Shown one piece after another: positions 6,508 through 7,840 of a stretch of DNA of 64,000 nt. How positions within the stretch are numbered: the stretch's first letter is position 1; each line of letters begins with the position of its first letter. The stretch lies in contig NZ_JAIQYY010000013.1 in NCBI RefSeq assembly GCF_020181035.1, positions 140,562 through 204,561 on the forward strand. The letters run 5' to 3'. Both the position numbers and the translations under genes were made by a program. Source of the stretch: Streptomyces sp. CoH27. Its GTDB lineage: Bacteria > Actinomycetota > Actinomycetes > Streptomycetales > Streptomycetaceae. The notes under the pieces were generated by a model. The model had not been told where the DNA came from and did no database searches. It worked only from the letters and a program-made list of their open reading frames with translations.

Positions 6508-6813
6508 TCAGCGGACGCCTTCCGGCGGTAGCGCGACGCGCGCAGTACGGCGTTCACCGTCCAGCACCCGCAACGCCCGTGCCAGCGTGTCCCCGTGCAG
6601 CTCCGCCTCGCCCCGCTGGTGCATCAACGCGAGGGCGTCCCGCAGCTCTGCGGCCTTGCGCACCAGGGCCTGGGCCGCGCGCAGACCCCGGTAGGTGTCG
6701 CCGTCGAGGGCCGGGTTGATCCTGCCGAGCAGGTCGACCGCCTCCAGGTAACGGTCGATCAGATCGCCCTCGGCGCGTGTCAGCGCGGGCAGCGGCGGCA
6801 GCTCCGGAAGCAT
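6508..6813 (-). CDS. Small conserved protein downstream of clpP
   Basis: 101-aa soluble, mostly alpha-helical protein of unknown function (LTRAEGDLIDRYLEAVDLLG at the N-terminus, arginine-rich C-terminus). It starts 7 bases after the ClpP-like stop codon, so the two are almost certainly co-transcribed and possibly functionally linked. I do not recognise a domain. Confidence 0.7.
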   Translation of the reverse strand: MLPELPPLPALTRAEGDLIDRYLEAVDLLGRINPALDGDTYRGLRAAQALVRKAAELRDALALMHQRGEAELHGDTLARALRVLDGERRTARVALPPEGVR

Positions 6814-6820
6814 CGTCGGC

Positions 6821-7471
6821 TCACCCCGCGTCCGGTGCGCCGGGCGTGCTCCGCCGACTGGGCACGATGCCGTCCACCAGACCGTAGGCCAGTGCCGCCG
6901 GGGCGTCCAGCACCACGTCCCGTTCCAGGTCGGCGTGCACCTGCTCCGCCGTGCGCCCGGTGTGCCGGACGAGCATCTCCTCCGCCAGCGCCCGCATCCG
7001 GCCCAACTCCTCGGCCTGGATGAAGAGGTCGCTGGGCTGACCCTGCACCGGCGCGGCCAGCTGGGGCTGCGCGATCACCATGCGCGCGCCGGGCAGCGCG
7101 AACCGCTTGCCCGGGGTGCCGGCCGCGAGCAGCAGCGCCGCGTAGGAGGCGGCCTGGCCCAGGCAGTAGGTGGCCACGTCGCAGCTGACGTAGCGCAGCG
7201 TGTCGTAGAGCGCCGTCATCGCATGGAAGGTGCCGCCGGGGGAGTTGATGTACAGCGTGATGTCCCGCTCGGGGGCCGCGTGTTCGAGGTGCATGAGCTG
7301 CGCCATCACGTCGTTGGCCGCCGTGTCGTCGAGCGGGGTGCCGAGGAAGACGATCCGGTCCTCGAAGAGCTTGCCGTAGGGATCGAGGGTGCGCGCGCCG
7401 CTGCTGGTGCGCTCGGTGAATTCCGGCAGGACATAGCGGGCGTGGGCGGCGAATTGCCGGGACATGGACAT
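6821..7471 (-). CDS. ClpP-family protein lacking the catalytic histidine
   Basis: 216-aa ClpP-fold protein. The start [10 protein letters not shown] at 7471 follows GAGAGGGG. Alignment to E. coli ClpP gives the serine at S109 ([16 protein letters not shown]) and the aspartate at D185 (ERDVVL), but the position exactly 25 residues after the serine, where the catalytic His sits, is Ala134 (MVIAQPQL instead of MIHQPLG). The codon is GCG at 7070-7072. It may therefore be a non-proteolytic or partner-dependent subunit that mixes with active ClpP paralogues. Streptomycetes carry several ClpP genes; this resembles the monocistronic extra copy. Operon with the downstream 101-aa gene. Confidence 0.88.
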
Positions 7472-7509
7472 ACCCCTCTCGTGGCGCGGCCGGCGATGCG
7501 GCGCTGCTT

Positions 7510-7546
7510 CTGTAAAAAATGTACAGGACGTACGTGACGTTAGAAT
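7510..7546. promoter_or_regulatory. Operator/promoter between clpP-like gene and Phd antitoxin
   Basis: AT-rich stretch with CTGTA-N7-TACAG (7510-7526), a TGTACA core (7520-7525), ACGTACGT (7528-7535) and a TAGAAT -10 hexamer (7541-7546) six bases before the antitoxin ATG, implying a leaderless or very short transcript. TGTACA is the core of known YefM operators, so autoregulation is likely; the site also covers the divergent clpP-like promoter region. Confidence 0.55.
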
Positions 7547-7552
7547 GGGGGT

Positions 7553-7840
7553 ATGGCCTACGAGATTCCGGTGACACAAGCCAGGGCTGAGCTCGCCGAC
7601 CTGATCAACCGGGTGGTGTACGGCGGTGAGCGCGTCGTCGTGACGCGGCATGGAAAGCCGCTGGTCGCGCTGGTCTCGGCCGCCGATCTGGAGCGCCTGG
7701 ACGCGCTGGACGAGGCTGCCGGTGCGGCCGAGGAGCAGATCATCAGCTCTGTCTCGGGCGTTCGCGAGGCCGGTTCCGCTCCGCGCGAACAGCGGCGGTT
7801 CGGGATCGCCGCCGAGCATCGCGGGCCCGGGGTGTCCTGA
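7553..7840 (+). CDS. Phd/YefM-family antitoxin, no toxin alongside
   Basis: 95 aa. N-terminal Phd/YefM fold ([19 protein letters not shown], then [20 protein letters not shown]) that binds DNA; the C-terminal half, which in family members wraps the toxin, is an acidic then basic tail. No Doc, YoeB or PIN gene follows: the next 230 bp lead into urease. So it is an orphan antitoxin or a repurposed repressor. Divergent from the clpP-like gene. Confidence 0.88.

Follow-up and report, generated by a model that had tools for sequence, protein, structure and literature searches.

The window analyzed here is a 64,000-nucleotide stretch of the Streptomyces sp. CoH27 genome. Its minus strand carries a ClpP-family gene, clpP5, with a small gene directly downstream and a divergently oriented Phd/YefM-family gene upstream. 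The features of the locus are as follows.

6508 to 6813, minus strand: gene for a 101-amino-acid helical protein of no known family, 7 bp downstream of clpP5
6821 to 7471, minus strand: clpP5, encoding a ClpP-family subunit with a broken triad (S109, A134, D185), assigned by PF00574, alignment, and predicted fold
6917 to 6919, minus strand: codon GAC of Asp185, third triad position, kept (alignment)
7070 to 7072, minus strand: codon GCG (CGC on the plus strand) of Ala134, at the catalytic-histidine position (alignment, translation)
7145 to 7147, minus strand: codon TCC of Ser109, nucleophile position, kept (alignment)
7511 to 7534, no strand assigned: putative operator TGTAAAAAATGTACAGGACGTACG, recognized by its conserved GTAC spacing, with cores GTAA (7512 to 7515), GTAC (7521 to 7524), and GTAC (7530 to 7533) in 9-bp steps
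7553 to 7840, plus strand: gene for a Phd/YefM-family antitoxin-like protein (PF02604, E value of 4.7e-13; TIGR01552), divergent from clpP5

The clpP5 product (216 amino acids) matches Pfam PF00574 in a profile search with an E value of 1.5e-62, and an AF2 model built with 48 aligned sequences predicts the ClpP fold (pLDDT 90.1); profile and fold together place it in the ClpP family. The top PDB matches of the model are chains of Mycobacterium tuberculosis ClpP1P2, with Streptomyces hawaiiensis ClpP1P2 chains lower. Alignment to M. tuberculosis ClpP2 is collinear, window residue n pairing with ClpP2 residue n+1, so that Ser109 corresponds to Ser110, Asp185 to Asp186, and Ala134 to the histidine of 'LIHQP'. 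In place of the Ser-His-Asp triad of an active peptidase, the window protein has S109, A134, and D185. An earlier note on this DNA had described exactly this exchange, with Ser109 and Asp185 kept, and both alignment and codons agree; its further proposal of an inactive subunit holds insofar as the triad is predicted from the sequence to be nonworking. The protein shares with ClpR the trait of being a ClpP homologue without an intact triad; in our ClpP tree, which contains no ClpR sequences, it groups with Streptomyces ClpP2. The second ATG (Met3) is favored as the start codon by the GAGAGGGG stretch and by the N termini of homologues and, if used, moves the ClpP5 residue numbers by 2.

Three ClpP-family matches are found in the source genome (9.75 Mb in 104 contigs). 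The third is clpP5; the other two form a tandem pair on a separate contig and are ClpP1 and ClpP2 by tree. In a phylogeny built from 196 distinct ClpP sequences, the window gene falls within a clade holding 129/129 ClpP5 sequences (support, 0.94), separate from ClpP1, ClpP3, and ClpP4, with Streptomyces ClpP2 as the nearest paralogue (support for ClpP2 plus ClpP5, 0.94). Ninety-six of the 129 come from an even draw covering 121 genomes (the source genome plus 120 evenly drawn Streptomyces), in which ClpP5 is found in 96 and missing in 25; these 96 are not biased to the query. The remaining 33 come from 38 named loci, which are biased to the query because they were found with query peptides. 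The five named loci dropped were duplicates of draw sequences (L010, L028), outside ClpP5 (L037, L039), or a split match below the length cut (L041). Three additional ClpP5 sequences (L271, L274, and L275, with SHD, SSD, and AEE at the triad positions) stand outside the 129. An early-branching relative in Pseudonocardia eucalypti (L036:4001-4624) has Pro-Arg-Glu at these positions, and neither the small gene nor the Phd-like gene has a match in that stretch.

We use the label ClpP5 after the single-gene clpP5 of Streptomyces lividans, whose sequence is absent from our comparison. The five-gene naming in Streptomyces follows PMC9765437 and PMC12607617, and numbering is not uniform between papers (Streptomyces cattleya, PMC4989188). 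SCO1230 was rejected as the Streptomyces coelicolor ClpP5, since PMC3276577 gives it as a possible secreted tripeptidylaminopeptidase.

Triad loss among Streptomyces ClpP proteins

The triad is broken in 62 and intact in 34 of the 96 even-draw ClpP5 sequences; over all 129, 87 are broken and 42 retain Ser-His-Asp. The replacements are diverse. The His column reads H in 54 sequences, followed by Q (27), R (26), E (8), S (7), G (3), D (2), K (1), and A (1), and the Ser column S in 91, A in 26, G in 6, P in 5, and T in 1 (Ser lost in 38/129). Asp is found in 111, with the rest spread over ten other residues. On the tree of the 129 ClpP5 sequences, the most parsimonious history has 11 changes of triad state; under irreversibility, 17 losses of the triad are needed, and, counted residue by residue, His is lost 11 times, Ser 21 times, and Asp 13 times.

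All 19 members of the clade that includes the window gene lack the catalytic His, with E (8), Q (5), R (2), S (2), G (1), and A (1) in that column. In the three closest relatives (90, 88, and 85% identity), the residue opposite Ala134 is Glu, Glu, and Gly, respectively, and the codons at position 134 in the closest relatives of the window gene encode Glu, Gly, or Ser. The simplest reading is that His loss predates the split of this clade and that the site drifted afterwards. Conservation of the alanine across Streptomyces, proposed in the earlier note as a check, is not what the alignment gives. The residue varies; to judge from these sequences, Ala134 itself is nothing special, and what recurs in ClpP5 is triad loss, by many routes. 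The open-access PMC literature consulted, seen in part, offered no statement on triad loss in Streptomyces ClpP4 or ClpP5.

Among the other paralogues, the triad is kept in ClpP1 (21/21), ClpP3 (10/10), and ClpP2-type proteins (23/23, two of them second-module copies). In ClpP4, the ClpP2-like half of the ClpP3/P4 pair, Gly takes the place of the His in 50/50 sequences (e.g., L158:2051-2656 and L212-L251), read in 50 of the 51 ClpP4-scored genomes (G050 not included); the ClpP4-positive call has a clear gap, with identity of ≥82% versus ≤58%. ClpP4 appears to be a partner of ClpP3 that is fixed as a pseudo-protease. Like ClpP5, this ClpP2-like pair member has its His replaced, but by one fixed change, whereas the changes in ClpP5 are many and mutually unlike.

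Genomes with ClpP4 have 25 intact and 15 broken ClpP5 copies and those without it 9 and 47 (Fisher P = 4e-6), a raw table that is confounded by ancestry and contains just 3 supported independent pairs. A correlated-evolution test of ClpP4 against ClpP5 on the gene tree was marginal (P = 0.043 for the triad and 0.026 for His). We therefore treat an association between ClpP4 and intact ClpP5 as unproven.

Neighboring genes and the GTAC sites

The two linked genes pointed out in the earlier note, one small and the other a divergent antitoxin gene, are present in the window, and the linkage is kept genus-wide. Over the 129 ClpP5 loci, some of whose flanks end at contig ends, the small gene lies ≤200 bp downstream on the same strand in 127, and phd lies upstream and divergent in 121, within 400 bp in 108.

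The Phd-like protein carries the Phd/YefM domain of type II toxin-antitoxin systems (PF02604, TIGR01552), and its residues 1 to 50 are nearly invariant. The next gene after phd is ureA, 222 bp on, rather than a toxin gene in the same operon, and YoeB, the one toxin family sought, had no match in the whole source genome. Beside broken ClpP5 copies, the Phd-like gene has a median omega of 0.235 (23 pairs), with one sister pair at 1.86.

Between clpP5 and phd, two GTAC cores 9 bp apart (GTAC-N5-GTAC) occur in 103/103 intergenic regions (the ClpP5 loci, of the 129, with a clpP5-phd gap of 30 to 220 bp), compared with 0.16 of 103 expected from mononucleotide shuffles. TGTAC-N5-GTAC occurs in 102/103 regions, and a third GTAC or GTAA follows another 9 bp away in 88/103. 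The sites are present next to both intact and broken ClpP5. The putative operator resembles that of YefM-YoeB operons in that a Phd/YefM-family protein is encoded beside paired GTAC-core sites. YefM operators have TGTACA cores 12 bp apart (PMC7730913), whereas the cores here are 9 bp apart in every region; because of this spacing, the geometry is related to that of YefM but different. The clpP5 locus also differs from YefM-YoeB in having no adjoining toxin gene and in having clpP5 as the divergent neighbor. An exact match to the 15-mer pattern TGTACNGGANGTACR occurs only at the window site in the 9.75-Mb genome. A wider regulon was rejected: besides the one exact copy, matches with ≤1 mismatch number 24+27, versus 19+16 for the reversed control. 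A sigma-70 promoter scan of positions 7400 to 7650 found none.

The small gene is present in 100/121 genomes, five of them without ClpP5. Its omega is 0.146 beside intact and 0.154 beside broken ClpP5, indicating strong constraint in both settings. An AF2 model (pLDDT 88.9) has four helices. The protein has no Pfam or NCBIfam match and no PDB match below an E value of 0.05, and identification by fold failed, with generic helical matches only (best Foldseek E value, 0.96; VIA Z, 6.5). Three genomes from another family (L264:1239-1568, L265:2983-3315, and L266:1353-1622) encode relatives of the small protein next to GNAT acetyltransferase genes, in stretches that match neither ClpP nor the Phd-like protein; the small protein may have a function in its own right.

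A second set with the same plan, an intact-triad ClpP with a small gene and a Phd/YefM-family gene, occurs at L209, L210, L192, L272, and L267, in genomes G058, G016, G064, and G365 and in G397, from another family.

A candidate role for ClpP5 without a triad

What a subunit of this kind could do is suggested by work on ClpP2. In S. hawaiiensis ClpP1P2, cutting is done by ClpP1, while ClpP2 binds ClpX, ClpC1, and ClpC2; activity is undiminished with ClpP2 S131A, in agreement with cell-based results from S. lividans (PMC9765437). In M. tuberculosis, ClpX and ClpC1 dock on ClpP2 as well (PMC4416901). Because ClpP2 docks the ATPases and tolerates S131A, proteolysis can continue after a ClpP2-type subunit has lost its triad, and a ClpP2-like paralogue that keeps its use without a triad would explain losses in ClpP4 and ClpP5 and not in ClpP1 or ClpP3. 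ClpP5 and Streptomyces ClpP2 share a fold and the docking pocket positions 72, 74, and 94 (Thr, Tyr, and Tyr in the window protein). They differ in that ClpP2 keeps Ser-His-Asp and that ClpP5 is encoded at a separate locus, flanked by the small gene and the divergent Phd/YefM-family gene.

The window ClpP5 is, in our view, probably a pseudo-protease, namely a ring subunit of the ClpP2 type that lacks an intact triad and takes the position of ClpP2 beside catalytic ClpP1. Such a subunit would have lost its own peptidase chemistry while the remaining protein was kept by selection. It would assemble opposite or among catalytic ClpP1 subunits, replacing ClpP2, and the resulting ClpP1-ClpP5 core, differently gated and with fewer active sites, would be offered to Clp-ATPases. 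The Phd/YefM-like protein would repress both divergent genes via the GTAC sites, with ClpP5 expressed once it releases the DNA; the small helical protein is proposed as a partner or regulator.

Two known systems bear on this proposal. ClpR of cyanobacteria, plastids, and apicoplasts is likewise a homologue without a catalytic triad and sits in mixed Clp cores, but it is a standing inactive subunit type (PMC7966870), whereas ClpP5 is a mosaic, intact or separately broken by species. Of the six S. cattleya ClpPs, four, among them a complete second tandem pair and one single-gene ClpP, cut the half-life of an antitoxin in Escherichia coli when coexpressed with ClpX (PMC4989188). Because of this coexpression result, inactive-looking subunits may still promote degradation, with the proviso that the S. 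cattleya numbering differs and that neither a ClpP5 orthologue nor a His-less subunit is matched to the four.

More tentatively, and as less likely than not, we consider a dedicated switchable module (a toxin-less Phd/YefM-like repressor, its private operator, ClpP5, and the small helical protein) that puts a noncatalytic subunit into the housekeeping Clp protease, only the ClpP2-like side losing its active site. If this is true, the genus would follow a rule: active-site loss in the ATPase-docking, ClpP2-like side (fixed in ClpP4, recurrent in ClpP5) and never in the ClpP1-like side. Two of the five Streptomyces ClpPs would then be pseudo-proteases in most or all species. Many antitoxins are Clp substrates; if the repressor is one too, the amount of ClpP5 would be tied to Clp activity. 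Clp influences Streptomyces development, and antibiotics target ClpP. Recurrent active-site loss under selection would offer a testable case for bacterial pseudo-protease subunits that retune Clp, comparable to plastid ClpR, with intact- and broken-ClpP5 species as a natural comparison. Taken together, the pattern of sequences suggests that a dead ClpP5 subunit is used to retune the main Clp protease.

The main functional rival is a poison or decoy: inactive ClpP5 would bind ClpP1 (or ClpP2) and block or break tetradecamers. It would act as an inhibitor, or would protect against compounds directed at ClpP, and would not be part of a working hybrid protease. It holds this place because ClpP-ADEP of S. 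hawaiiensis, an accessory ClpP that, like the proposed ClpP5, alters the housekeeping core by direct binding, remodels that core partly by breaking up ClpP1 complexes. ClpP-ADEP thus provides a precedent from the same genus, binding ClpP1, preventing tetradecamers, and protecting against ADEP, and it forms an active core with ClpP2 too (PMC12607617). Broken triads are fully compatible with such a role. However, ClpP-ADEP is nearest to ClpP1 and lies close to an antibiotic gene cluster (PMC12607617), whereas ClpP5 is nearest to ClpP2, and a pure poison would need none of the ATPase-docking residues that most broken ClpP5 copies keep. With pocket positions transferred from PMC9765437 via the spacing to the catalytic Ser, the 87 broken sequences have Tyr74 in 86, Phe or Tyr94 in 72 (another residue in 15), and Ser, Ala, or Thr72 in 83. 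On this evidence we regard a poison as unlikely.

Constraint on triad-less ClpP5

A different rival is decay, in which ClpP5 is a redundant paralogue being lost, triad loss being an early step and deletion the last. The 11 to 17 triad losses would fit, and ClpP5 is dispensable in places, since it is missing in 25/121 genomes and deleted or truncated between its neighbors in three. In G107 (L204:1287-1475), ClpP5 is truncated to approximately 63 N-terminal residues, with the Phd-like gene on one side and the small gene on the other. G087 (L205:1334-1604) has no ClpP match between these two genes, and on contig C2 of G016 (L208:1489-1680) ClpP5 is gone, the flanks being a Phd-like gene and a weaker small-gene relative.

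The surviving broken copies argue against decay. All 87 broken frames extend to query column 200 or beyond with no internal gap of more than 3, including throughout two wholly broken clades (36/36 and 19/19); a TGA within the match in four ClpP5 rows is the frame end at the C-terminal tail. In sister pairs with measurable dS (NG86), omega has a median of 0.248 (range, 0.10 to 0.61; n = 24) for broken and 0.194 (n = 12) for intact ClpP5 (P = 0.08). Neutral simulation of clpP5 gave median omega values of 1.1 to 1.7 and, at a dS of 0.2 to 0.3, stops in 28 to 41 of 60 copies, with 19 to 32 of 60 still stop-free. Because the broken frames are full length and their omega is low relative to these simulations, the broken copies are held to be under purifying selection, and ClpP5 is not simply a dead gene. 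It is nonetheless less constrained when broken, as omega across all pairs is 0.39 for broken ClpP5, 0.28 for intact ClpP5, and 0.14 for ClpP2, a difference that decay would also produce. Beside broken copies, the small gene is still constrained and the GTAC sites are still present. We find decay decidedly unlikely as an explanation, and the pseudo-protease ring subunit remains our preferred reading.

The earlier note had allowed that another nearby histidine might fill the catalytic role. The window protein has six His residues, and a survey of these six found no replacement; the idea is judged unlikely. His179 is the most enriched in His-less ClpP5 but occurs in just 16/75 (1/42 intact), and Ser109 is lost in 11/13 sequences with His83. 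His201 is found in 36/75 His-less and 0/42 intact ClpP5 proteins, 6 of the 36 missing Ser and 11 missing Asp, and the window protein has Gly201; family-wide, this column is a puzzle and may simply mark one large clade. An active enzyme with another base is thus hardly credible, even with Ser109 and Asp185 kept, His83 only a few residues from the conserved Gly79-Gly80 in the window protein, and His201 common elsewhere, given how often these histidines accompany a lost Ser or Asp and that 38/129 ClpP5 proteins lack Ser.

The columns with the largest entropy gains in broken ClpP5 are 134, 110, 163, 164, and 109, and columns 165, 185, and 108 are also within the 11 most relaxed. So are columns 207, 53, and 23, for which we know of no active-site role. 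Columns 163 to 165 (window positions 6977 to 6985), in helix 146-171, are strongly relaxed in broken ClpP5. They read Leu-Glu-Glu, a motif that intact ClpP5 conserves and ClpP2 mostly shares, and Ala-Glu-Glu in the window protein, and they may be coupled to the active site.
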